IMG/VR virus record: IMGVR_UViG_3300027749_000484
Span: 1 to 23,341 of that record
Length of the DNA: 23,341 bases
DNA from: a virus
Strand: one strand, 5' to 3'
Position 1 is the stretch's first letter. The number at the start of each line of letters is the position of its first letter. Made by a program: the position numbers and the translations under genes. A model generated the notes under the pieces. It ran no database searches and was not told where the DNA came from. It saw only the letters and a program-made list of their open reading frames with translations. Positions 2,505 to 21,203 of this stretch are shown piece by piece.

Positions 2505-3575
2505 ATGCACGAACACCTTCACGCCTTGGCGATTCACGCCTTCTACTGCGGCGAGATCGAGACGGGACGACGAGCAAGCGAACGGCTGCTCAACATGCCG
2601 CTGCCGGACGACCTCGAGCGGCAGGCTCGGGCCAACCGCACGTGGTACACGCCGCTCCTGGACGAGCTAGCGTTTCATTTGCCCCGCCGAATCGAAGTCG
2701 AGCCGGCCCACACCGGCTGGACGACGTTCAATCCGACAATCATCCCAGACGGTACGGGCCTCCTGGCGATCGTGCGGTCGAGCAACTACCGGATCGACGC
2801 CGCCGGCCGGTATGTCATTCCGCCGGAAGACGACGGAGCGATCCGCACCGAGAACATCCTCTGCCGGATCGACCGCGACGGGAATGCTTACGACCGGCGG
2901 GTGATCGTGCCGCCGGCCTACGAGCCGAATGGGTACCCGGTTCACGGCCTGGAGGACTGCCGGCTACGTCGCACGGCGCGCGGAGTCGGAGTCTCAGCAA
3001 CGGTCCGTGACGCGGCACCGTGGACGGGCCAGTGTCGGATCGGCGTGGCGGACCTCGACGTGGGCGAGGCCCGTTTGCACGTTCTGCGAGTGCTCGAGTG
3101 GGAAGGGCTCCAGCCGCACGAGAAGAACTGGATGCCGATCGACGGCCAAGACGGCTGGCTCTACGCTGCCAACCACGGCGGCCAGACGGTCACCGTGTCG
3201 GCCGACGCCGATATGCCGGGCGTCTACGAGGTGGCCGTCCGCGGCCCGGCTCCGCATCTCGCCAAGGGATTCCGGGGCGGAGGGCAGCTCGTGCCGGTCC
3301 GCGGCGGGTGGCTGGCGATCGTTCACGAAGTGGCTCACCTTGGCGACGGCCGGCGAGCGTACGAGCACCGATTCGTGTGGTTCGATGAGACGTTCACGCT
3401 TCAGCGCTGGTCGCCGCTATTCTCGTTTCAGGGCACGAAGTCGATCGAGTTCGCCGCCGGGCTGGCGGCGCTCGACGGGCAGATCGTGGTGTCGTTTGGC
3501 GTCAACGACGCGGAAGCGTGGACGACCTCAATAGCAGAGGAGGACGTATGCGACCTGCTCGCGCCTGTCTCGTGA
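2505..3575 (+). CDS. GH130-like five-bladed beta-propeller protein with TPR-like N-terminus
   Basis: 356 residues from ATG 2505, with GAGGAGA at 2494-2500. Residues 1-60 form a helical TPR-like hairpin (AIHAFYCGEIETGRRASERLLN). Residues ~75-345 look like a glycosidase/phosphorylase propeller of the GH130/GH32-43 fold: FNPTII (75-80), LLAIVRSSNYRID, ENILCRID (116-123), GLEDCRLRR (148-156), EKNWMPI (206-212), GGGQLVPV (258-265), AIVHEV, and KSIEFAAGLA near 312-321. The blade-end D/E residues and the GLEDCR motif recall GH130 beta-mannoside phosphorylases and propeller domains fused to glycosyltransferase-TPR proteins. The gene starts a run of coupled sugar genes and overlaps the next by 28 bases. 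It may cleave, phosphorolyse or merely bind a glycan; catalysis is unproven. Confidence 0.75.
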   Translation: MHEHLHALAIHAFYCGEIETGRRASERLLNMPLPDDLERQARANRTWYTPLLDELAFHLPRRIEVEPAHTGWTTFNPTIIPDGTGLLAIVRSSNYRIDAAGRYVIPPEDDGAIRTENILCRIDRDGNAYDRRVIVPPAYEPNGYPVHGLEDCRLRRTARGVGVSATVRDAAPWTGQCRIGVADLDVGEARLHVLRVLEWEGLQPHEKNWMPIDGQDGWLYAANHGGQTVTVSADADMPGVYEVAVRGPAPHLAKGFRGGGQLVPVRGGWLAIVHEVAHLGDGRRAYEHRFVWFDETFTLQRWSPLFSFQGTKSIEFAAGLAALDGQIVVSFGVNDAEAWTTSIAEEDVCDLLAPVS

Positions 3576-4213
3576 CCGGCTACATCCGGCTCGATCTGCC
3601 GAACCGCTCGCACGGCGAATACGAACGGCTCGGCGGCGAGCTGGTCGCCGCGGCCCGCGAGGGCGGGCACGAGGTGCAGACGTTCGGCGGTCGTGTCGAC
3701 GACTGCTGGCATTGGTCGCTCTCTGAAGGTGCGACACTGCCGTTGGGCAACCCAGACAAAGACACGCGAGAGTTTCACGCGGTCCAACACGAGAAAACGT
3801 CGTGGGTGGTCGACGCCTCGGAGCGGACCGACGCCGACATCCTCGTATGGATGGACTGCGGTCTGCTTCACCTGCCGGGAATCACTGCTGACATGGTGCC
3901 GCAATTCCTCGAGCGGGCTGCCGCCTTTGCTCCGCGGGACCGGCTTGGCATGGCATCGATCTGGGGCGCGCCGTTCCGTCAGCCGGATTGGCGGTCGGTC
4001 GAGTGGTGGTGTGCCGGCGGCGTGTTCACGGTTCCCCGGTCGCTGGCGTTCGCCTGGCACGACGCTGTGGTTGACCGGGCAATTGCCATGCGATCAGACG
4101 GTCACGTCACGTGGGAAGTCAACACATGGGCCACGGCCTGGGCGAGGTGGTCAAACGTCGTTCGGCCGTGGCTGTGTGATCACAACGAAACGATTCTGGA
4201 GGCCGGCCCGTGA
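3548..4213 (+). CDS. Putative glycosyltransferase-like protein
   Basis: 221 residues from ATG 3548, chosen over the upstream in-frame GTG at 3518 because GAGGAGG lies immediately upstream. It has the layout of a small GT-A-type enzyme: an N-terminal strand (ACLVTGYIRLDL), a central ADILVWMDCGLLHL with VWMDCG at 100-105 in the place of a DxD/DxG metal-sugar motif, CAGGVFTVPRSLAFAW at 155-170, TWEVNTWATAW at 188-198 and a terminal DHNETI. This pattern (W-x-D-x-G, then GG-F, then E-x-N) resembles the HtrL/YibB family and related glycosyltransferases, but the match is from memory. It lies between a glycosidase-like gene and two GT2 genes and overlaps both neighbours, which supports a sugar-transfer role. 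Confidence 0.65.
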   Translation: MRPARACLVTGYIRLDLPNRSHGEYERLGGELVAAAREGGHEVQTFGGRVDDCWHWSLSEGATLPLGNPDKDTREFHAVQHEKTSWVVDASERTDADILVWMDCGLLHLPGITADMVPQFLERAAAFAPRDRLGMASIWGAPFRQPDWRSVEWWCAGGVFTVPRSLAFAWHDAVVDRAIAMRSDGHVTWEVNTWATAWARWSNVVRPWLCDHNETILEAGP

Positions 4214-4896
4214 GCGAATACGTCGTCGTGATCCCGACGCGGAATCGCTATCGGCTTTGCCTACGAGCGATCCGGTCGGCGCTGACGCAGACGGTCGTGC
4301 CGGCGGAAGTGCTCGTCGTCGACGACGCCTCGGAAGACCCGCGCTATCAGTGGCTCGAGGAGATCGTCGGCAGCCCGCGGCTGACGGTGATCCGGCGAGC
4401 CGTCTCGAGCCGGGATGAAACCGGTGCGGGGTTTGCCGTCGGCACCGTGCGAAACGAAGCGATCCGCCGCGTGCTGAAGGTCGGATTCGTCGGTTGGATG
4501 GCGTTTCTTGACGATGACGACGAATGGATTCCGACCAAGGCCGCGGTCCAGTTCGCGGCCGTGGGATCGAACGGACGGTACGGCGTGCTCTGCGCCAACG
4601 CCTACAACCGCGGCCCCGACGGCGTCGTGACCGGCTACCACCACGGAACGCACGGCGTGACCATCACCGACAACACCCGCGATGTAACGGCGATCTGCCG
4701 GGCCACAAACCCGGTCATCAACTCGACGGCGGTCGTTCACACTCGGATCGCCGAACGCCTTGGCGATCAGCAGGCGGCCGGATTCGGCGAGGACTGGAAC
4801 TACTGGCAACGTGCCAGCCGTCTGACCGGGATCATGCGGGTCGAGGAGCCGCTGGCGTGGTACACGGTCGGAAACCCGAAGGAATACACGCTGTGA
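4210..4896 (+). CDS. GT2-family glycosyltransferase
   Basis: 228 residues from GTG 4210 (GTGA overlap with the previous stop; GGAGG at about 4198-4202). The GT2/GT-A fold signatures are clear: YVVVIPTRNRY at 4-14, VLVVDDASED at 34-43 (nucleotide-sugar binding), FLDDDDEW at 99-106 (the DxD metal site), and GFGEDWNYWQRA at 191-202 with the catalytic ED pair. No membrane segment is present, so it should act in the cytoplasm on a nucleotide-sugar donor. The acceptor is unknown. As part of the coupled sugar cassette inside a virion operon it may glycosylate a virion protein or a host surface component. Fold assignment is firm; substrate is not inferable. Confidence 0.92.
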   Translation: MSEYVVVIPTRNRYRLCLRAIRSALTQTVVPAEVLVVDDASEDPRYQWLEEIVGSPRLTVIRRAVSSRDETGAGFAVGTVRNEAIRRVLKVGFVGWMAFLDDDDEWIPTKAAVQFAAVGSNGRYGVLCANAYNRGPDGVVTGYHHGTHGVTITDNTRDVTAICRATNPVINSTAVVHTRIAERLGDQQAAGFGEDWNYWQRASRLTGIMRVEEPLAWYTVGNPKEYTL

Positions 4897-5927
4897 AAAT
4901 TGGCATCTACGCGCTAGCGAAGGACGAATCTCGGCACGCTGCGGCGTGGGCCGCCACGACCGCGGAAGCGGATGTCCGCGTCGTCACCGACACGGGATCG
5001 ACCGACGACACCGCCGAGCTGCTCCAGGCGGCCGGCGTGACGGTGGTCCGGTCGGCGATCGTGCCGTGGCGGTGGGATGTTGCCTGGACGCAGGCGCTCT
5101 GCAATCTGCCGGCCGATGTCGACGTTGCCTTCCGGGTCGACCTCGACGAGCGGCCCCAGCCGGGCTGGCGGGCGGCGATCGAAGCGGCGTGGGACGACGA
5201 GGCCAACAACCTCGTTTACGACTACTGGTGGAGCCTTGACGACGCCGGCGGTCCGCTCCTGCGGTTCCACTGCGACCGGGTTCACGCTCGGTCGGGATTC
5301 GTCTGGCGGCAGGCCACACACGAGGGGCTCGTCTGCTGGGCCGGCGAGGTGCGGCGGAAGTTCTGCGCTGGCCTGGTCGTCGAGCACCACCGCGATCTGG
5401 GAAAGGTCCACACCGCGGACCTTACGCTCCTTCGAGTGGCGGTCCGCGAATCGCCGGACGACGCTCGCGCCCGGTGGTATCTCGCTCGGGAGATGGACTA
5501 CGTAGGCATGCCGACGGCGGCCGCGGAGTTCGCCGGCTACCTGAAGATGCCCGGCGGCTCGCCGACGGAGCGTGCCTACGCTTTCCGCCGGCTGGCGTCG
5601 ATCACCGGCGACCCGCGGCACCTCGAGCGGGCCGCCAAGGAAGCACCCGGCGAGCCGGACGCTTGGGAGCGGCTGGCGCTGGCCGCTCACCACCAAGAAC
5701 ACTGGGAGCAGTCGGCAACGCTGGCAGAGCAGGCCATCAAGTCGCCCGCGGCCACGCACGCCACCGACCCGCTGGCGAGGGCCAGGGCGGCAGAGCTGGC
5801 GTCGATCGCCCTCTGGCACCTCGGCCGCAAGGCGGACGCCCTGACGCACGCCAAGGCCGCTGCGGCACAATTGCATTGGGACGAGCGGATCGTCGGGAAC
5901 GCGGCGGCAATGGAGGCGAGTCAATGA
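4893..5927 (+). CDS. GT2-like glycosyltransferase with C-terminal TPR repeats
   Basis: 344 residues from GTG 4893 (GTGA overlap with the previous stop; AAGGAA upstream). The frame is open further upstream but there shadows the preceding GT2 gene. The N-terminal ~180 residues are a GT2 domain of the TPR-associated type: KIGIYALAKDESRH, VTDTGSTDDT at 31-40, FRVDLDERPQPGW at 80-92 (acid motif DLDE), WRQATHEGLV, and VEHHRDLGK at 163-171. From about 185 to 340 come helix-turn-helix pairs of TPR type (RARWYLAREMDYVGMPTAA, PDAWERLALAAHHQEHWEQ, ASIALWHLGRKADAL). GT2-TPR fusions occur in bacteria, including Planctomycetes, and in some large viruses. It ends with an ATGA overlap into the tail genes, so the cassette is read as one unit with morphogenesis. 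Confidence 0.88.
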   Translation: MKIGIYALAKDESRHAAAWAATTAEADVRVVTDTGSTDDTAELLQAAGVTVVRSAIVPWRWDVAWTQALCNLPADVDVAFRVDLDERPQPGWRAAIEAAWDDEANNLVYDYWWSLDDAGGPLLRFHCDRVHARSGFVWRQATHEGLVCWAGEVRRKFCAGLVVEHHRDLGKVHTADLTLLRVAVRESPDDARARWYLAREMDYVGMPTAAAEFAGYLKMPGGSPTERAYAFRRLASITGDPRHLERAAKEAPGEPDAWERLALAAHHQEHWEQSATLAEQAIKSPAATHATDPLARARAAELASIALWHLGRKADALTHAKAAAAQLHWDERIVGNAAAMEASQ

Positions 5928-6370
5928 GCGTCCACGGCGATATCAAGGCGGCAATGACCGCGAGTCTCACGGCCGTTACGTGGACCACGACTACCGATGG
6001 CGTGACCGTCGAAAGCAAGTTTTTTCCGCAATACGGGATTGAGGATCTTGCCACGCCGATCATCTGCGTCACGGACGGAGCCGTTGAGTCGGAGCGAATC
6101 GCCCGGTCGTCGCACATGCGGGATTACTCGATCGAAATCTATCTCGCTCGGCACACTCCAACGGAGGCCGAGTGCGGCGTGATGCTGAATCTTCTCGAGG
6201 AGCTGCTTGGGAAGCTCGAGGATCACACGTGGCCGGGGATCACGTGGCCGATCGGCGTCACATCGCCGCAGACCATCGTCGCCGAGAAGAACCCCGGCGA
6301 GGGCTTGGAGGAGCGAAATGTGTGGCGGGCGGGGATCGTCGTGACGTTCAAGGTGCCGAGGAGCCACTGA
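5924..6370 (+). CDS. Tail terminator/tail completion-like protein
   Basis: 148 residues from ATG 5924, with GGAGG at 5912-5916; the ATGA overlap joins it to the GT2-TPR gene. Size, the opening MSVHGDIKAAMTASLTA, the central RDYSIEIYLARHTP and a C-terminal beta hairpin (VWRAGIVVTFKVPRSH) fit small tail-completion proteins of the lambda gpU/HK97 gp10-11 neighbourhood, which cap the tail tube. There is no signature motif, so the call leans on position: it precedes an HK97-gp10-like gene and the tail-tube-like genes. The start is well supported by its Shine-Dalgarno. Alternatives are a head-tail connector or stopper. Confidence 0.6.
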   Translation: MSVHGDIKAAMTASLTAVTWTTTTDGVTVESKFFPQYGIEDLATPIICVTDGAVESERIARSSHMRDYSIEIYLARHTPTEAECGVMLNLLEELLGKLEDHTWPGITWPIGVTSPQTIVAEKNPGEGLEERNVWRAGIVVTFKVPRSH

Positions 6371-7214: not shown

Positions 7215-7553
7215 ATGGCCGGCGAAACGATCGTCCTCGGCAAGAACGTGACGTACACCGGCGTGTCAAACGTCAGTGACGGGTCGATCACGACCACGTT
7301 CACGGAGATCGACAAAACCAAGGCCGGCGACACCGAGCGGACGATTCTCCGCGGGTGGGCCGAGCAGACGCTTGACCTGACCTGCATCGACGCGCCGGGC
7401 GTGTCTGTCGGCAGCGTGGTTGTCGTCAGTGCCACCGGGGCCAACGGTCACAACCTCTCTTCGGTCAAGTTCCTTGTCACGAGCGTCAGCCAGTCTGAGC
7501 CGCTCGACGACAAGGTGACGTTTTCCGTTTCCTGCACCCGCGGCGTCCAATAA
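7215..7553 (+). CDS. Tail-tube-like protein, paralogue 1
   Basis: 112 residues from ATG 7215 (GCGGAGG seven bases upstream). It appears to be a compact beta-rich protein: an N-terminal LGKNVTYTGVSNV, a central TERTILRGWAEQTLDLTCIDAPG, and a C-terminal KFLVTSVSQSEPLDDKVTFSVSC. The last segment is shared with the two following genes (V-x-x-VS-x-x-x-PLD-x-x-V-x-F-S), as is the E-x-x-x-L-x-C-(I/L)-DA strand. The position, just before the tail-assembly chaperones and the tape measure, is where phages encode the major tail (tube) protein, and ~110 residues is near the minimum for a tube fold. I infer a tube-fold protein; which of the three is the major subunit cannot be told from sequence. Confidence 0.65.
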   Translation: MAGETIVLGKNVTYTGVSNVSDGSITTTFTEIDKTKAGDTERTILRGWAEQTLDLTCIDAPGVSVGSVVVVSATGANGHNLSSVKFLVTSVSQSEPLDDKVTFSVSCTRGVQ

Positions 7554-7565
7554 GGAGCGATCGAC

Positions 7566-7886
7566 ATGGCAGTAGCTCTCGGTCGGGACGGCGGCACACC
7601 AACGGGCGGAAACGGCGCGACGGGCGTGCTCAACGTTACGTGGAACCAAGAGGTGACCGCGATCGACGTGTCGCATCGCGGCCTCGTCAACGCGAGCGGC
7701 ATTTCGTACAAGGCCGCCACCGGCGGATTCGTGACCCGCACCGCAGAGATCGAGTGTCTTGACGCGACGGCGGTGATGACCTCGCTGGCGTCGGCCGGCA
7801 GCGGCTACATCGTTACCAACGTGTCGGAAACACGGCCGCTCGACGGGCCGGTCACGTTTACCTTGACCGCGAAAAAGACCTCCTGA
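7566..7886 (+). CDS. Tail-tube-like protein, paralogue 2
   Basis: 106 residues from ATG 7566, twelve bases after the previous stop, with AAGGAG at 7552-7557. Paralogous to its neighbours: MAVALGRDGG at the start (compare MAISLGRE in paralogue 3), VTRTAEIECLDATAVM in the middle and YIVTNVSETRPLDGPVTFTLTAKK at the end. A glycine/threonine-rich insertion near the N-terminus (GTPTGGNGATG) and the central WNQEVTAIDVSHRG differ from paralogue 1. 'ID-VSHRG..NA.G..Y' is reminiscent of tail proteins in which this strand binds the next ring. Beta-rich with no Cys cluster or membrane segment. Probably a second tube or tube-initiation subunit. Confidence 0.65.
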   Translation: MAVALGRDGGTPTGGNGATGVLNVTWNQEVTAIDVSHRGLVNASGISYKAATGGFVTRTAEIECLDATAVMTSLASAGSGYIVTNVSETRPLDGPVTFTLTAKKTS

Positions 7887-7898
7887 TCGGAGGCAGCC

Positions 7899-8255
7899 GT
7901 GGCGATTTCTCTTGGTCGTGAAACGGTGGTGACGTGGGGCGGCGTGACCGTTCCAGGCGTCCGCGACGTGCAGGTCAGTGTGGCTGGCACCATCCGCGAG
8001 ATCACGCCGTTTGGCAGCCGGGCGACGATCTCGTACCAGACCGCGTACGCAGTGTCGATCACCATCGACACAATCGACGACGCTGCGGCCACAACCGCCA
8101 TCGCCGCGGCAGTCGCGGGCACGGAGATCGCCGTCGTGACCAACGGCTATTCGTTTACGGCGGTGGTCGTCAACGTGTCTGACGCTCAGCCGCTGGACGA
8201 TGTCCGCGTCTGGTCGATTCAAATGGCAAAGACCCAAGCAGGACTTCGCACATGA
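7899..8255 (+). CDS. Tail-tube-like protein, paralogue 3
   Basis: 118 residues from GTG 7899, with GGAGG at 7889-7893. MAISLGRETVVTWGGVTVPGVRDVQVSVAG opens the protein; ISYQTAYAVSITIDTIDDAAATTAI is the central strand region, and FTAVVVNVSDAQPLDDVRVWSIQMAKTQ the end, sharing the VS-x-x-x-PLDD motif with the two upstream genes. 'G..V.GV.DV.V' at the N-terminus is common in tail-tube proteins. It overlaps the chaperone gene by four bases (ATGA), coupling it to tail assembly. The three genes probably arose by tandem duplication and have diverged well beyond nucleotide recognition. Confidence 0.65.
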   Translation: MAISLGRETVVTWGGVTVPGVRDVQVSVAGTIREITPFGSRATISYQTAYAVSITIDTIDDAAATTAIAAAVAGTEIAVVTNGYSFTAVVVNVSDAQPLDDVRVWSIQMAKTQAGLRT

Positions 8256-8973: not shown

Positions 8974-10476
8974 ATGTCAGCATCAGCAGTCCGCGGCGGT
9001 CAGGTCTATGTTGAGATCGGGGCTAATCCGTCGAAATTTCTCTCGGCGCTGACGACGATCAACACCAAGATCGCCGATGTCGGCATGACGCTTGAGTATG
9101 CGGGCATGGGCATGGCAGCGATCGGTGCGGCGATCGCCGGTCCGATCATGGCTATCGGCGGGGCCTTCGTTGAGAAGACCGTCGAGATGCAGAACATGCA
9201 GCGGGCGCTGAAGGACATCGGCAACGCTGTCGGCGAGGCGGTCGCGCCAGCATTCGTCGGCATTGCCAATGTCGTCGCCGGGGCGGCGAAGGCGATCGCC
9301 AAGTTCATCCGTGACAACCAGCAGCTCGTCCGCCTGGCGGTCGCGGTCGGCGGCTACTTCACGCTTTGGGGAATGGCAACGTACGCGCTTGGCTTTGCCA
9401 TGACGACGCTTTCTCGAACGATCACGGCGTCCATCGGGCCGATCAGCGCGTTCCTGACGATCGTCAAGAGTGCGGCGGTCGCCGTCGGCGTGTTTGCGAC
9501 GAGCGGGCCGGTGCTGGCGGCCGTGGCGGTGCTCGGCGGGTTGGCTGCCGGGGCGGCGATTGCCGGCGTCGACTTTCGCAAGCTCGCCGGCGTGATCGGC
9601 GGTGCGTTTGCCAATCCGATTGGCAATCTTACGGCCGTCTTCGGTGATCTCCTCGGGACGGTCAATCTCACCGTCGAAGGCATTTACCGGGCGATCGCGG
9701 CAGGCGACCTGGCTGGGGCCGTGGATGTGCTGATGGCCGGCTGGCTGGCCGCCTGGGCTCGTGGCACGCAAGCGGTAATGGGTGTCATGGACCCGTTCAC
9801 AGAGACGGCCCAAAACGCAATGTCCGATCTCGGCGTTGGTCTGGCTGCCATGTGGGATCAGATGTGGACGGACATGGCGACGAGCGAATGGGGCGGATAC
9901 ATCCTCGGCGCAATGGACAACGTTTTAAACGGGATCATGTCCTACTGGGACAATCTCATCGGCTATCTCGAAAAGGGGTGGACGGAGATGTGGCGTCGTA
10001 TGGGCAGGATCACCGACGAGGCCGCGGCAAAGGAAGTGGCTCGCATCGATGCCGTCAACTCTGGCAACGCCGACCAGCGTGGCCGCGACAGGCCGGGATT
10101 TGCCGGTCGCACCGGGCTGACCGACCAGCAGAAAGCCAAGATGCAGCAGGAGTCTGCCGACCGGCAAGCAGCGATGTCCGCGGAAGGCGACCGGATGCGG
10201 AAAGACCGCGCCGATCGGACGGCGGCAAACGTCGGGATGCGTGCCCAGGCCGTCGCCGACGCAAACCGGAATCTTCAGGCACAAGTCAATCGGTTTCCGG
10301 TGCCGCAGGTTCCCATGCAGGCCGGGGCGCTGAAGACCGAGACGGCCGGAACGTTCTCGGCCTTTGGACTCGGACAGCTCGGCACGGGCAACATCGACAA
10401 GCAGCAGCTTGAGGAGCTGAAGAGAATCCGCGAAGAATTGCAGCGGCAGGCTTTGGCCGGCGGGATCGGACCGTGA
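8974..10476 (+). CDS. Tail tape measure protein
   Basis: 500 residues from ATG 8974, preceded by a strong AGGAGGG at 8961-8967. The N-terminus (GGQVYVEIGANPSKFLSALTTINTKIADVG) is typical of tape measures. Hydrophobic Gly/Ala-rich helices follow at about residues 38-65, 120-150 and 165-200, then Trp-rich helices (MWDQMWTDM, YWDNLIGYLEKGWTEMWRRM). Next comes a long charged coiled-coil-like segment (residues ~345-430, including QQKAKMQQESADRQAAM), and a C-terminal GTFSAFGLGQLG followed by a terminal helix (QQLEELKRIREELQRQ). It sits directly after the G/GT chaperones, the invariant siphophage order. By the known ~1.5 angstrom per residue rule the tail would be about 75 nm, short for a siphovirus. 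Confidence 0.88.
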   Translation: MSASAVRGGQVYVEIGANPSKFLSALTTINTKIADVGMTLEYAGMGMAAIGAAIAGPIMAIGGAFVEKTVEMQNMQRALKDIGNAVGEAVAPAFVGIANVVAGAAKAIAKFIRDNQQLVRLAVAVGGYFTLWGMATYALGFAMTTLSRTITASIGPISAFLTIVKSAAVAVGVFATSGPVLAAVAVLGGLAAGAAIAGVDFRKLAGVIGGAFANPIGNLTAVFGDLLGTVNLTVEGIYRAIAAGDLAGAVDVLMAGWLAAWARGTQAVMGVMDPFTETAQNAMSDLGVGLAAMWDQMWTDMATSEWGGYILGAMDNVLNGIMSYWDNLIGYLEKGWTEMWRRMGRITDEAAAKEVARIDAVNSGNADQRGRDRPGFAGRTGLTDQQKAKMQQESADRQAAMSAEGDRMRKDRADRTAANVGMRAQAVADANRNLQAQVNRFPVPQVPMQAGALKTETAGTFSAFGLGQLGTGNIDKQQLEELKRIREELQRQALAGGIGP

Positions 10477-10486
10477 GGAGAACACC

Positions 10487-11416
10487 GTGGCACTGACATG
10501 GGTTGAGGATTCTACGAGCCGGTCCGCGACGATCTTTCGGCTCGGCCGAAAAGATCCTTCTACCCGTTCGCGCGTTTGGAACGTCATCGGCACGAGCAAC
10601 GAAGACGTTCTGCACGCCGACGTGAACAGCAAGATCAGCGACTTCTACCAATACTGGAGCTACCCAGGCCAGCCGCTGGTACGGCTGCGAGCCGAACAGT
10701 ACAGCGTGACCTACCAGGGAGACGACGCCTGGCTTGTGACGGTGAACTACGAGAAGCTCGGGGCCGACGACGCGACGCAGACGGGACCGTTGAAGCGAGC
10801 GCGGTCGTTTGACACGACCGGCGGGACGCAGACGGTGACGCAGTGCCGTTTTGACCCGGTAGCGGCATCGATTGGCGAGAGAATCTATGACTCAACCGGA
10901 GCGTTGGACGGGGCCAACCGGCCGACGATGAAAGGGGCCATCAACGTTGATGACCGCGGCGTTAATGGAGTGGACATCGTCGTCCCACAGCTTACGTGGA
11001 CGGAAGGCTACGACGTGCCGACTCGGTTCGTCACCGATGCCTACGTTCGCGCCGTGCATCTGCTGACAGGGTCTGTGAACGCCGCTCCGTTTCGTGGGTT
11101 CGCTCGAGGGGAAGTGTTGTTTGCTGGCATGACTGGATCGCAGGAATGGGATCTCCAACGTGGCGACGGACCGTGGTCGCTGACATTCCGTTTCGTTGGG
11201 TCACCAAATCGTGGTCCAGACCTCGGCGGGCTGCCGGCCGAGCCGATCGGCAACATCACGGTCTACAACAAGTTCGGCCACGATTACCTTTGGATTCGGT
11301 ATGCGTCGGTCGATGACCAGAACAACAATTTGATACTCCGCCAGCCGCTCCAGGTCTACGTCAACAAGGTCTACCCGGACGGTGATTTTTCGAAGATCGG
11401 TATTGGTGTGGCATGA
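10487..11416 (+). CDS. Distal tail/baseplate-type protein
   Basis: 309 residues from GTG 10487, with GAGGAGA at 10475-10481. It opens with MALTWVEDSTSRSATIFRLGRKD and contains a strand-rich N-terminal half (YWSYPGQPLVRLRAEQYSVTYQGDDAWLVTVNYEKLG). The C-terminal half has FRGFARGEVLFAGMTGSQEWDLQRGDGPWSLTFRFVGSPN, then GHDYLWIRYA. The 'F.G...GEVLF.G.......W...F.F..SPN' segment resembles tail proteins that lie between the tape measure and fibre genes. No lysozyme, peptidase or hydrolase motif is visible, so a structural distal-tail or hub role is the best reading. It overlaps the next gene by four bases (ATGA). Confidence 0.65.
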   Translation: MALTWVEDSTSRSATIFRLGRKDPSTRSRVWNVIGTSNEDVLHADVNSKISDFYQYWSYPGQPLVRLRAEQYSVTYQGDDAWLVTVNYEKLGADDATQTGPLKRARSFDTTGGTQTVTQCRFDPVAASIGERIYDSTGALDGANRPTMKGAINVDDRGVNGVDIVVPQLTWTEGYDVPTRFVTDAYVRAVHLLTGSVNAAPFRGFARGEVLFAGMTGSQEWDLQRGDGPWSLTFRFVGSPNRGPDLGGLPAEPIGNITVYNKFGHDYLWIRYASVDDQNNNLILRQPLQVYVNKVYPDGDFSKIGIGVA

Positions 11417-13910: not shown

Positions 13911-14931
13911 GAGACAGGCAGCCGGCAAGGCAGCCGGCGACGAGATCACGCTGATCGTCCGACGGATCGTCGCGGCACACCCGGACGCACCGGCTCGGAC
14001 GCTCGCCCGGCGGGTCGTCGAAGAGTGCAACGGGGCGATCACGCTTGAGCAGGCTCGGACGCGGGTGCGTCAGTCGCTCGGGGTGTCAGGGAACAAGCAC
14101 CGCAAGTCAATGTCTTCCAAAGACCTTTACCGCCCTCCGCGCCCCGCGGGAACGAAGATGGCGATGCCGCCGTCGCAGGCCGAGCCGTGGCTGCCGTTTG
14201 ACCTTGGCATCACGGGAAAGATCGGCATCCTGTCTGATATCCACGTGCCGTACCACGACGAGACGGCGCTGCGGGCCGCGGTCGATCACCTTCAGGGCGA
14301 GAAGATCGACGCCTTGCTCCTTAACGGCGATTGGGCCGACTTCTATTCGATCAGCCGGCACGAGAAGAATCCAAAGCTGCGGAACTTCCGCAACGAGCTG
14401 GCGGCCGGCCGCGATCTCCTGAAGTGGATGCGGCAGGAGTTTCCGAACATGCGGATCGTCGCCAAGCTCGGCAACCACGAGGAACGCTGGGAGAAGTGGC
14501 TCTGGGAGCACGCCCCGGAGATTTCCGACGATCCGATCATGGGGATCGACAATTGGTATGGATTCCACAATCTGGGTATTGAACTAGTAGCAGACAAGCG
14601 GATCATCCTCGCCGGTGCGTTGCCGATTCTGCACGGCCACGAAAAAGGCAACGGGATCAGCTCGCCGGTGAATCAGGCCCGCGGGGCTTTCATGCGGCTG
14701 CATCACACGGTGCTCGAGGGCCACGGGCACCGCACCTCGACACACTCTGAGCCCGACATGATGGGCAGCGAGACGGTGTGTTTCTCGACGGGATGTCTCT
14801 GTGACATGCGGCCGGCTTACGCACGGCTCAACAAATGGAATCAAGGCGCGGCGGTGGTGGAGGTCCACTCTGACCGCTCGTTCGACGTGGAGAACTTCCG
14901 CATCCAGAGCGGCAAGGTGAGGCAATCGTGA
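13903..14931 (+). CDS. Calcineurin-like metallophosphoesterase
   Basis: 342 residues from ATG 13903, overlapping the HExxH gene by 8 bases; GGGAGG lies at 13891-13895. The N-terminal ~65 residues are a helical domain resembling a small DNA-binding or terminase-small-subunit-like helix set (RRIVAAHPDAPARTLARRVVEE, ITLEQARTRVRQSLG). From about 105 the catalytic fold follows with the full motif series: SDIHVPYHD (D112, H114), NGDWADF (G142-D143), KLGNHEERW (GNHE 190-193), HGHEKG (244-249) and EGHGHRTST (GHGH 273-276). All metal ligands are present, so it should be an active phosphodiesterase or phosphatase. Phages carry such enzymes near DNA-processing or morphogenesis genes; the substrate is unknown. 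The gene order places it in the late operon. Confidence 0.9.
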   Translation: MAKRQAAGKAAGDEITLIVRRIVAAHPDAPARTLARRVVEECNGAITLEQARTRVRQSLGVSGNKHRKSMSSKDLYRPPRPAGTKMAMPPSQAEPWLPFDLGITGKIGILSDIHVPYHDETALRAAVDHLQGEKIDALLLNGDWADFYSISRHEKNPKLRNFRNELAAGRDLLKWMRQEFPNMRIVAKLGNHEERWEKWLWEHAPEISDDPIMGIDNWYGFHNLGIELVADKRIILAGALPILHGHEKGNGISSPVNQARGAFMRLHHTVLEGHGHRTSTHSEPDMMGSETVCFSTGCLCDMRPAYARLNKWNQGAAVVEVHSDRSFDVENFRIQSGKVRQS

Positions 14932-15725
14932 CAGACGCCGACCTCGTTACCATCGATCAACGCATCCAGAGGGCCGGTGCCGCCAACTGTTGGACGGGCA
15001 CACTCGGAAGCCTCGCTACCGACGCTCGTCGGCTGGTGCGGCACATTCAGGAGACAAGGCAAATGGCAGAGGAATACCCACAACGAATTGAAGTCCCGTG
15101 CAACACGTGCCGCGGAATCGTCGGGCTCGAGCCGACGTGCCCGTATTGCAACGGAGCCGGAAAGTATTGGAAGCGAAGCTCTCAGACTGAGCCGTGGAAG
15201 TACAGCTCCGAAGATCCGCCGTGCTTTCGCGCTGGCTTCGACGAAGCGACACACGAAAAAAGGGCGGCCGCAACGCTTGCCGCGGCCATCGCTGAACACT
15301 CGCGGCTCGCCAAGGAGCAGCTTTCTTACCCCGTTGATCACATCCTCCAGGGCGAGCGGGAGCTGAAGCATTTCACCGGCGACGAGATGGAGCCGGAGGC
15401 GACGTTGATCGAAGAGCCGGAAGGCCCCCCGGTGGCCGTGCAGCTTCTCGACACCGCACGGGCCGCGGTGCTCGATCGGCATCGGGTGTACGGCCCGCCG
15501 CAGGAGCATTTCGCACGGACGGTCGGCATGGTCAACAGCCTCTTTGCGTCGGTGCTGAAACGGCCGCTGACAACGTCCGATTGGGCTCGCATCATGCTCT
15601 TGGACAAGCTCTCCCGCGATCTCGGGCCGCGGCCGCATCCCGACAACGCTGTGGACCTAGCAGGCTACGCGGCCTGCCTTGCCGAGTGCCAGGCGTCCGT
15701 ACCCCCTGCCGGCGGCAACCCGTGA
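14928..15725 (+). CDS. Zinc-motif plus DUF6378-like phage protein
   Basis: 265 residues from GTG 14928 (GTGA overlap). Residues 58-78 hold a DnaJ-type pair, C-x-x-C-R-G (58-61) and C-x-x-C-N-G-A-G (71-74), suggesting one zinc site. The C-terminal ~80 residues (about 174-255) match the phage family I know as DUF6378: LLDTARAAVLDRHRVYGPPQEHFART, TTSDWARIMLLDKLSRDL, and DNAVDLAGYAACLAE, whose D-N-x-x-D-x-x-G-Y motif is characteristic. That family's function is unknown; it is often compared to nucleotide pyrophosphohydrolase-like helical folds. Here the two parts are fused. Residues ~80-170 look like a loosely conserved linker. An internal ATG at about 15063 could give a shorter product. Confidence 0.75.
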   Translation: MTDADLVTIDQRIQRAGAANCWTGTLGSLATDARRLVRHIQETRQMAEEYPQRIEVPCNTCRGIVGLEPTCPYCNGAGKYWKRSSQTEPWKYSSEDPPCFRAGFDEATHEKRAAATLAAAIAEHSRLAKEQLSYPVDHILQGERELKHFTGDEMEPEATLIEEPEGPPVAVQLLDTARAAVLDRHRVYGPPQEHFARTVGMVNSLFASVLKRPLTTSDWARIMLLDKLSRDLGPRPHPDNAVDLAGYAACLAECQASVPPAGGNP

Positions 15726-16856: not shown

Positions 16857-17467
16857 CCACCGCCGCTCTCCTCGCCGCCGCCGCGGTGGCCTACCTGCTC
16901 TGGACCCGCCCAGCGGTCGCGCCCGCGCTGCCGCAACTGCCGCCACTGTCGCCCATCATCCCGCCCGGAATCATGCCGCTGGGGATGCCAGGGGCAGCGG
17001 CTGCCGGCGGCCCGCACCCGCTCACGCTCCTGGCGATCCTGGCCGCGGGGGCGATGATTGCGTTCTCGATTCTGGAATCTAGAACGCCGCCGCCTGTTCC
17101 CGGCCCCGCGCCGGTGGTCGGGCTCGATCTCCGAGGCCGGTTCGTTGGGCCGGACGCCGCGACCGACGCCTCAACCACTGCCGCCCTCCTCGAGGAGCTG
17201 GCCGGCGCGATCGAGTGGGACGGGCAGCAGGCCGAGCCCCGGCTCCGCACCGGGGCCGCCTTCGACGATCTCCGCCGGTCGGCTCGGGAGCTGCGGACGC
17301 GCGGCGTCTCGCTCGGGGCTCGGCAGCCGGCCGTCCGCGACGAGATCAAACGGTTCCTCGATGCAGAGGCCGGCACCGAAGGCGGGCCGGTCGATGGTGC
17401 CGCCCGTGCGAAGTGGGTGAGGGCTTACCGGGCCGTGTCGGCCGCAGCGGCGGAGGCGACCCGATGA
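16853..17467 (+). CDS. Two-segment membrane protein, possible holin-type
   Basis: 204 residues from ATG 16853 (ATGA overlap with the previous gene); the in-frame extension upstream is a shadow. Two hydrophobic segments are seen: residues 2-17 (TTAALLAAAAVAYLLW) and about 57-73 (LTLLAILAAGAMIAFSIL), separated by a Pro-rich loop (PALPQLPPLSPIIPPGIMPLG). The remaining 130 residues are cytoplasmic-looking with charged helices (ALLEELAGAIEWDGQQ, FDDLRRSARELRTRG, VRDEIKRFLDA). Topology and position just before the peptidase suggest an envelope or lysis protein. It is much longer than classical holins because of the C-terminal tail, so that role is tentative. Confidence 0.65.
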   Translation: MTTAALLAAAAVAYLLWTRPAVAPALPQLPPLSPIIPPGIMPLGMPGAAAAGGPHPLTLLAILAAGAMIAFSILESRTPPPVPGPAPVVGLDLRGRFVGPDAATDASTTAALLEELAGAIEWDGQQAEPRLRTGAAFDDLRRSARELRTRGVSLGARQPAVRDEIKRFLDAEAGTEGGPVDGAARAKWVRAYRAVSAAAAEATR

Positions 17468-18588
17468 CCGCTCGCCAACGCACCGTCTGGACCTGGAGCG
17501 CCGTTGGCTTCGTCGTGTTCGCGGCGATCGTCGGCGCGCTCGTCGAGCGGGCCACGCACCGGCTCGCCGCTGGGGTTGAGAGCAGGTTCGGGTACACGCC
17601 GAATCCTGAAGGCACGAGAGAGTTCCTGGCCGAACTGGATCAGCCAGAGTTCAAGGGCGCGGCACCTGACGTGTTGCGAAACGCCAAGGGACGCGACACG
17701 TTCCTTTTTCGCCATGCCGATCGGGCACACCGCGCCGTCTACGGCCGCCCGTTTGAAGCGTGGAATCAAGGCAACCACGGTTCCTGCGTCTCGTTCGGGT
17801 GGGCTATGGGATCGTTCGTCGGCCAGGCCGTGGACTGGACCGAGGGAGAGTTGTCCGACCCGCCGAAGCTCGTCGCCACCGAACCGATCTACGGCGGCAG
17901 TCGGACCGCTGGCAGGCTCCCGCCGATCACGTTTGCAGGATATTCAGACGGCTCTTACGGGGCCGCAGCGGCCCGCTGGGTGGTCGGCACAAAGGCCGGC
18001 GTCGGCGGCATCCTCTACCGCCAGAAGTACGGGGCGATCGATCTCTCGACCTACGACATCTCGCTGTCGAAGGAGTGGGGGGCGAACGGCGTTCCGGCCG
18101 CTCTGGCAAAGCAGGCGACCGATCACACCGCCCAGGGCGTCGCCCTCTGCGACTCATGGGACTCGCTGGCGGCCGCGATCGAGAACGGCATGCCGGTGCC
18201 GATCTGCTCCAACGTCGGCTTTGCCGCGACCAACGTGAGGGACGCTGACGGGTTCCTTCCTCGAGGTGGCAACTGGTCCCACTGCATGGTCGTGATCGGC
18301 ATTCGGTACAAGGTCAACGGAAGCCCGCGAGACGGTGCTCTCGTTTGTAATTCTTGGGGATCGTCGTGGGTGCGAGGAGGCCGTTTTCCTGCGGACATGC
18401 CAGAGGGCTGTTTTTGGGCTGACCGCAAGGACATCGAAGCCATCCTGGCCCAGGGCGATTCGTTCGTCATCGCCGGCGTGAACGGGTGGAAGGCCCGCGA
18501 CCTTGACAACGGCGCGTGGCTCCAGCCTGCCGCCGCTCGCCCGCAACCCGCCCGCATCATTGCCAGCGTCTACTCTCTCGCCCCGTGA
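17464..18588 (+). CDS. Membrane-anchored papain-like (C1-type) cysteine peptidase homologue
   Basis: 374 residues from ATG 17464 (ATGA overlap). An uncleaved signal anchor is likely at residues 9-28 (WTWSAVGFVVFAAIVGALVE). The C1-fold catalytic order is visible: Q102 and C108 in NQGNHGSC (oxyanion Gln and nucleophile Cys), H273 in NWSHCMVVIG, and N296 in LVCNSWGSSWVRGG. This matches papain's Q-C-H-N order and its NSWG motif. The region between Cys and His (~165 residues) has the expected spacing. Papain-like enzymes are rare in phage late regions, where amidases or CHAP domains are usual. Sitting among small membrane proteins, it may be an endolysin replacement, an envelope protease, or an entry protein. 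Activity is inferred from motifs. Confidence 0.8.
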   Translation: MTARQRTVWTWSAVGFVVFAAIVGALVERATHRLAAGVESRFGYTPNPEGTREFLAELDQPEFKGAAPDVLRNAKGRDTFLFRHADRAHRAVYGRPFEAWNQGNHGSCVSFGWAMGSFVGQAVDWTEGELSDPPKLVATEPIYGGSRTAGRLPPITFAGYSDGSYGAAAARWVVGTKAGVGGILYRQKYGAIDLSTYDISLSKEWGANGVPAALAKQATDHTAQGVALCDSWDSLAAAIENGMPVPICSNVGFAATNVRDADGFLPRGGNWSHCMVVIGIRYKVNGSPRDGALVCNSWGSSWVRGGRFPADMPEGCFWADRKDIEAILAQGDSFVIAGVNGWKARDLDNGAWLQPAAARPQPARIIASVYSLAP

Positions 18589-20294: not shown

Positions 20295-21203
20295 CTATTC
20301 CGCCTCCGGCACGAACTCGGCGTCCTCGCCGAGATCGAGTGCCGGCAGGTAGTCGAGGGCCGACCGCGTCTGCGTGATCGACGGGGCGAGGTAGTGCTGG
20401 CGGGTCATCTCCGTGCTGTGGTGCCCCAGGTGAGCCGTGGCGTCCCCGCCGCCAGCGTGAACGTAGCTCGCCGATGACTTGCGGACCGCATGGAACGGCA
20501 GGTAGCTCACGCCAGCCGTCCGGCAGAGGACGCGCAGCGATGGGTAGATGCTCGTCGGCTGTTTGCGATCCCACGGCCAGACGAGATCGTCGGGGCCGCC
20601 GCGATGCTCCTCGAGCTGCCGGCAGAGATCGGCCGGCAGAGCGTGGGAAATGTCGGCACGCCGACCCTTGCGGGTGTCAGCCGTAAACAGCACCCGACCG
20701 GCGACGAGATCGACGTTGCTCCACCGGAGCTGCATTAACTCGCCGATCCGAGCACCGCAGCACCATTGGGCATAGAGGATCGATGACCACCACCAGGCCG
20801 ACGGCAAGCTACCGGTCCGGCCGCGACGCTTGCGGGCCTGGACGATGAGCCGGCCGATGTCGGTGGCCGTGTACGCTCGCGGCACGCGGGCGATCTTTGG
20901 TCGGCGCTTCAGCCGCGGCGGTTGACCCTCGTGGAAGCCCTCTTCACGCATCCACCGCCAGAGGGCCAAAAGCTGCGAGCGATCCTTGCTTACGGTGTCG
21001 GGAGAGATCGGCTTGCCGGCTCGAGTGTTACTGGCCCGCCATCGAAGGAACTCGGCGACCCTCATGCTCGTGAGATCGCCGGCCAGCGGCTCGTGGCCGA
21101 CGAACTCGGCGAACTTGGCGACGCTGTGGAGATAGAGCACCTCGGAGCGTGGGGAAAGATCCTGAATCACGACGTATTGGCTCAGTGCTGCTGTCAGTTT
21201 CAC
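20295..21203 (-). CDS. int: Tyrosine recombinase (phage integrase)
   Basis: 302 residues from GTG 21203 (minus strand; GGAG upstream). The N-terminal SAM-like core-binding domain spans about 1-90 (YLHSVAKFAEFVG, TVSKDRSQLLALWRWMREEGF). The catalytic domain carries the full tetrad: R152 in CGARIGELMQLRW, K179 in TRKGRR, H238-x-x-R241 in FHAVRKSSASY, H261 in LGHHS and the nucleophile Y271 in RQHYL. Length matches XerC/D-type and phage integrases, and no residue is missing. It faces the tRNA-like attachment core at 21332-21352, about 130 bases upstream of its start, the expected arrangement for a tRNA-targeting integrase. Two HTH proteins flank it as candidate directionality factors. Confidence 0.95.
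   Translation of the reverse strand: MKLTAALSQYVVIQDLSPRSEVLYLHSVAKFAEFVGHEPLAGDLTSMRVAEFLRWRASNTRAGKPISPDTVSKDRSQLLALWRWMREEGFHEGQPPRLKRRPKIARVPRAYTATDIGRLIVQARKRRGRTGSLPSAWWWSSILYAQWCCGARIGELMQLRWSNVDLVAGRVLFTADTRKGRRADISHALPADLCRQLEEHRGGPDDLVWPWDRKQPTSIYPSLRVLCRTAGVSYLPFHAVRKSSASYVHAGGGDATAHLGHHSTEMTRQHYLAPSITQTRSALDYLPALDLGEDAEFVPEAE

Follow-up and report, generated by a model that had tools for sequence, protein, structure and literature searches.

The window analysed here, meaning the whole stretch of 23,341 bp, is the IMG/VR virus record IMGVR_UViG_3300027749_000484 of an uncultivated metagenomic phage. It carries a cassette of four coupled genes, O1 to O4 (positions 2505-5927), whose likely role is to O-glycosylate threonine residues in one or more collagen-like fibre proteins of the phage itself. 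The first-pass annotation of this DNA had put forward the Gly-Pro-Thr (GPT) triplets of a collagen-like protein encoded upstream as the acceptor, and comparison of the cassette across phages and bacteria argues for such a role. The anatomy of the genes, their folds, their conservation, the exchangeable middle of the cassette and its specific association with GPT-rich collagens are what the analysis shows.

The cassette and its association with GPT-rich collagens

O1 (2505-3575), O2 (3548-4213), O3 (4210-4896) and O4 (4893-5927) all lie on the + strand. O1 and O2 overlap by 28 nt, O2/O3 and O3/O4 by 4 nt each (GTGA), and O4 shares 4 nt (ATGA) with the downstream gene at 5924-6370, so that the earlier description of four overlapping genes coupled into the next one is confirmed. 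O1 (GAGGAG) and O2 (AGAGGAGG) each have a good Shine-Dalgarno-like sequence ahead of them. The ratio of nonsynonymous to synonymous substitution rates (dN/dS) was 0.08-0.23 for O1-O4, indicating purifying selection comparable to that on the adjoining structural genes, and the four are thus real genes. The open reading frame (ORF) of the collagen-like protein, the proposed acceptor, begins before the window and only its C-terminal part is visible (1-323, +). This part contains four GPT triplets, in agreement with the first reading, scores 41 bits against Pfam Collagen (PF01391, cut-off 27.2) and has a fibre tail of the GDLYLR type at its end.

Searching with O1 gave 60 loci and with O4 80. About 100 IMG/VR loci, at identities from 95 % down to about 47 %, carry both genes immediately ahead of the same tail module, and the two nearly always occur together. 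In these relatives O1 and O4 are the fixed ends of the cassette and the middle is exchangeable: a middle of ~540 bp encodes one Methyltransf_24 (O-methyltransferase-like) protein, one of ~1350 bp contains two genes of glycosyltransferase (GT) type, and one of ~2000 bp contains O2, an O2-like paralogue and a methyltransferase. Such an arrangement would fit a core glycan that stays constant while its decoration varies.

The conserved gene at 10487, used as a query, led to relatives that share the tail module and lack the cassette. They have tail-fibre-like genes directly ahead of the shared module, and O4 and O1 were absent from their records where looked for. In the upstream sequence, 6-65 GPTG tetrapeptides were encoded in 33 of 36 distinct cassette-positive loci, compared to none in the 11 cassette-negative loci, whose whole records contained at most two matches to the pattern. 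One locus (L242) is only an apparent exception, since its GPT fibre gene lies just beyond the stretch analysed, and the sequences of L080 and L086 start downstream of the expected position of the fibre gene. Every cassette-bearing relative with enough upstream sequence thus has GPTG-rich fibre genes. Three loci (L043, L033 and L089) have no long collagen runs, yet VTGPTG repeats are present. Where long runs occur in cassette-positive phages, threonine ranks first or second in frequency at position Y of the Gly-X-Y (GXY) triplet, and proline is nearly absent there. The co-occurrence of the GT genes with a collagen-like gene, anticipated at first pass, therefore holds in related phages, and relatives with the cassette but without a collagen-like or threonine-rich structural gene were looked for and not found.

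The specificity for GPT was assessed in viral records chosen by DNA pattern alone, 50 with GPTGxxGPTGxxGPTG and 50 with the GPA analogue. A protein of the O4 family (E ≤ 6e-72) was encoded in 15 of the GPT-pattern records and in none of the GPA-pattern records (p 2e-5), although real collagen runs were present in 37 of the latter. Where one stretch contained both, O4 and the GPT collagen were 0.1-5 kb apart. An origin of the GPT collagens as a by-product of high GC content was considered and rejected: GPTG exceeds GPAG, GPSG and GPVG in cassette-positive loci, and a by-product of this kind is difficult to reconcile with the absence of GPTG from cassette-negative relatives and the 0/50 O4 count with the GPA pattern.

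The association extends beyond the lineage of the window. In a 197-kb phage (L053) the cassette lies near 91.6 kb among nucleotide-metabolism genes, while a protein with 47 GPTG is encoded at the start of the record, 91 kb away. In the Synechococcus phage DSL-LC02 the neighbours of an O1 homologue are two FkbM methyltransferases and a collagen-like gene rich in threonine. The Actinomycetia phage DSL-LC01 encodes an O4 homologue with two collagens upstream of it, and an O4 homologue also occurs with a GPT collagen run on a faecal phage contig of 5 kb.

Among bacteria, one GTDB scan found O1 homologues, some of them GT2-GH130 fusions, in Ignavibacteriae, Actinomycetes, Rhizobiales and Rhodospirillales, with GXY genes near about ten of 25 loci. 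Pfam Collagen was present in all 11 such genomes examined, compared to 3 of 14 control genomes. In the Mesorhizobium group (119 genomes), Pfam collagen was found in 27 of 28 O1-positive and 42 of 91 O1-negative genomes (Fisher p 5e-7); at least three collagen matches were found in only 18 of the 91 O1-negative genomes (Fisher p 9e-14 for the association with O1), both p-values being nominal because the genomes are related. By their listed coordinates, the O1 homologue and the collagen are usually 3-5 kb apart in this group. O1 is thus a partner in the phage lineage of the window and in some bacteria.

Several loci of the Mesorhizobium group (L328, L332, L335, L337 and L348-L367) encode GH130-like domains in proteins of up to ~1300 amino acids. 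Large collagen-like genes of the GAT/GPT type often lie 3-5 kb away, and in some of the genomes an O4 homologue adjoins the GH130-like gene. Apparently, this is an uncharacterised bacterial collagen locus. A contig of the Ignavibacteriae (L319) encodes one protein with two tandem O1-like domains, near a collagen-like gene of 137 triplets.

Predicted enzymes of the cassette

The identities first given to the four products (GH130-like, GT-like, GT2 and GT2-TPR) have been borne out by folds, PF00535, phrog_13126 and TPR matches. Neither O1 nor O2 matched Pfam or NCBIfam (at 0.01 for O1), and their folds were therefore used to identify them; O1 may be too divergent for curated sequence families. 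The AlphaFold model of O1, built from a 29-sequence alignment, has a pLDDT of 93 and is a five-bladed beta-propeller with a helical, TPR-like N-terminal extension. Its best 21 PDB matches (VIA) were all GH130-type mannoside phosphorylases or hydrolases (Z 20.9-24.0), and GT108 mannosyltransferases matched with Z about 18-18.6, roughly level with or just above GH43 enzymes. Residues E150, D151 and R153 of the GxEDxR motif (GLEDxRL region) were invariant in the 29 sequences. The region of D151 aligns, weakly (E 0.078), with GIEDARV of Listeria Lin0857, where the catalytic region of GH130 enzymes lies. On the strength of the model, O1 is an enzyme of the GH130/GT108 fold, and its activity is probably beta-mannosyl transfer. 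It shares the five-bladed fold, the GxEDxR region and the invariant Asp with these enzymes, but differs from them in its low identity (~11-15 %), its N-terminal helical extension and an acceptor that is likely protein-bound.

The O2 model (pLDDT 96, 28-row alignment) has a GT-A (nucleotide-sugar transferase) fold, and Foldseek matched it to a GT34 xylosyltransferase and to GTA/GTB enzymes (3e-5, TMq about 0.5). O3 is a GT2 glycosyltransferase (PF00535, 3.5e-14) with weak matches to colanic and teichuronic acid GTs. None of the Pfam, PHROG or NCBIfam matches of the cassette genes was to a flippase or a membrane-anchored GT.

O4 matches phrog_13126 'beta-1,4-glycosyltransferase' (1.4e-55). Its DTGSTD and DLDE-type (D-x-D/E) motifs were invariant in 27 sequences, except that the second T of DTGSTD tolerates S or A. 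At the C-terminus TPR structures were matched (profile positions 195-286, 3.7e-12), and the Pfam TPR matches were weak. We propose that O4 is the initiating threonine O-glycosyltransferase, with an architecture like that of SgtA.

Comparison with known systems and proposed mechanism

The closest known system is SgtA-BclA3 of Clostridioides difficile. SgtA is a 358-amino-acid GT-A + TPR enzyme whose gene is immediately upstream of bclA3, and in vitro it attaches beta-O-GlcNAc to threonine in peptides derived from the collagen region of BclA3, which is rich in GPT (PMC7157674). O4 shares the size, the architecture and the kind of genomic partner of SgtA, and it is for this reason that O4 is proposed to start the glycan on threonine. 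The substrate of SgtA is a spore-coat protein and not a virion protein, and neither a GH130-fold partner nor exchangeable middle genes were found in the description of SgtA (PMC7157674).

Other likenesses are more distant. The glycan of the Bacillus anthracis exosporium glycoprotein BclA, a protein already named in the first-pass annotation, contains rhamnose and anthrose and has no link to phages. Like the proposed product of the cassette, it consists of oligosaccharide side chains on a collagen-like region, as an entry in the reference list of PMC9614988 indicates. Mimivirus L230 is likewise a viral enzyme which glycosylates the virus's own collagen-like protein, but it adds glucose to hydroxylysine in a giant virus of amoebae, with a different enzyme and gene set (PMC9614988). 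Phage-encoded glycosyltransferases acting on virion proteins are also found in mycobacteriophages: Che8 and Rita have glycans on their major capsid proteins, as cited in PMC11256854. In the related phage Maravista, the same paper places the GT genes near the genome end, whereas the cassette of the window is part of a fibre/tail operon and tracks GPT collagens. The cassette would thus combine collagen glycosylation of the SgtA/BclA kind with phage virion glycosylation, adding a GH130-fold partner and an exchangeable middle, a combination of which no earlier description was found. Literature searches gave nothing relevant on GH130 together with phage and collagen, nor on collagen glycosylation in Mesorhizobium.

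We infer the acceptor residue, the order of transfer, the sugars and the benefit as follows. The main acceptor would be the Y-position threonine of Gly-Pro-Thr. O4 would bind the repeat and attach the initial sugar, in the manner of SgtA acting on BclA3, and this is the best-supported step. O1 would then add a beta-mannosyl unit, and the middle genes (O2 and O3 here, or a sugar O-methyltransferase-like gene in relatives) may extend, methylate or cap the glycan in a lineage-specific manner. Overlapping translation within the structural operon could bring the enzymes to nascent fibres. The benefit is likely to be a triple helix that stays stable and resists proteases without hydroxyproline, and/or a fibre surface with variable glycans, for shielding or adhesion.

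It is possible, but clearly more speculative, that phages and bacteria share a dedicated, modular system for O-glycosylating collagens, consisting of a GT2-TPR enzyme like SgtA as starter, a partner of the GH130 fold that mannosylates proteins, and exchangeable capping enzymes. In such a system glycosyl-threonine at position Y would take over from hydroxyproline the stabilising of prokaryotic and viral collagen helices, and the middle genes would make the glycans of the phage fibre differ from one relative to another. With glycosylation of the collagen-like fibre, what might pass for a loose 'glycan moron' becomes a specific hypothesis of enzyme and substrate whose acceptor, Gly-Pro-Thr, is conserved and testable, and its scope would cover a large, apparently undescribed phage group, plus bacteria. 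If true, a GH130-fold enzyme joins protein glycosylation and the SgtA/BclA principle reaches viruses. It could also help to explain both the stability of collagens in bacteria and viruses, where prolyl hydroxylation is usually absent, and the high frequency of threonine at their position Y.

Points against the proposal and alternative explanations

Several observations weigh against glycosylation of the fibre. The tail tree requires no more than about two changes for the cassette and for GPTG, and these coincide, which gives one or two independent pairs; a phylogenetic sign test within the tail lineage was set aside since such pairs are too few. With so few transitions and with the genes adjacent, part of the correlation in this lineage is due to shared ancestry or linkage. 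O4 was missing from 35 of the 50 GPT-collagen records and O1 was present in only two of them; O1 is thus not generally required, and of the two genes it is O4 that accompanies GPT collagens more generally. The Pseudomonas jumbo phages PaBG, Lu11 and HRDY3 (L602, L603 and L604) carry a partial O4 relative between tail and head-protease genes with no collagen run within ~8-12 kb, so in the wider O4 family the targets may include other virion proteins. Similarly, no collagen run was found within ~8-12 kb of the O1 relative of cyanophage S-SCSM2R, and many Actinomycetota GT2-GH130 fusions have no collagen nearby.

It is unlikely, in our estimate, that the cassette modifies the host surface, for seroconversion or superinfection exclusion, with its place in the operon and its collagen neighbours being incidental. 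The GT2 enzymes of phages frequently modify O-antigen, teichoic acid or pili of the host, O3 has its weak matches to colanic and teichuronic acid GTs, and the integrase of the phage (see below) permits a temperate lifestyle, in which modifying the host would pay. However, the cassette sits between fibre and tail genes and is translationally coupled, and its family matches give no flippase or membrane-anchored GT. The association with GPT but not GPA collagens, the unlinked pair in L053 and the adjacency to collagens in bacteria also speak against a host-surface target.

The glycosylation of other virion proteins, such as the major tail or capsid protein, with the collagen genes as passive neighbours, we regard as improbable. 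The capsid proteins of Che8 and Rita (cited in PMC11256854) set a precedent, the cassette abuts the tail module, and the O4 relatives of PaBG, Lu11 and HRDY3 are flanked by head and tail genes, with no collagen nearby. GPT fibres are nevertheless missing from relatives that have homologous tail genes and lack the cassette, and a tail acceptor would predict neither the tracking of O4 with GPT in unrelated phages nor that of O1 with collagen in bacteria. The contrast between GPT and GPA is predicted neither by this explanation nor by modification of the host surface.

That most of the co-occurrence reflects hitch-hiking of one adjacent block of fibre and cassette, with no enzyme-substrate relation, would fit the adjacency and the only about two congruent changes in the tail tree, but is very improbable, as linkage alone fails to account for the 91 kb in L053 or for the bacterial loci, and the association is GPT-specific and recurs across phyla with differing gene order, including fused GT2-GH130 proteins.

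Neighbouring genes

Two unknown genes, a LamG gene and an HNH-like gene lie between the collagen-like ORF and O1, followed by a gap of 56 nt. The LamG/concanavalin-like protein (1277-2107, +; PF13385, 2.2e-22) also matched virion-protein PHROGs and is a likely adhesin or fibre protein. The HNH-like gene (2104-2448; phrog_144, 1.6e-5) varies in presence among close relatives.

Downstream of the cassette there are three small tail-protein-like genes and then a tape measure (8974-10476; phrog_28, 8e-7), which backs the phage morphogenesis context originally assigned. The gene at 5924-6370 (+), the first of the shared tail module, had been called a tail terminator; its position and the gene order conserved in relatives make it a candidate for this role, but it has no PHROG or Pfam match. 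Three small tandem genes at 7215-8255 are similar to one another (2.7e-7 for the first and second, 1.2e-4 for the second and third), and most relatives retain all three in this order. They possibly encode a multi-subunit or decorated tail tube.

A tyrosine-type integrase (20295-21203, -; phrog_1, 6.5e-32) and a small DNA-binding-like gene nearby suggest that the phage is probably temperate, and no close prophage was found in the GTDB genomes scanned. The product of 17464-18588 has no Pfam match; papain-like peptidase motifs (NHGSCVSFG and NSWGSSW) were seen by eye and it is conserved in relatives. For 14928-15725 the PHROG label 'phosphofructokinase' (6.9e-18) looks misleading, as Pfam gives DUF6378 (1.4e-14).

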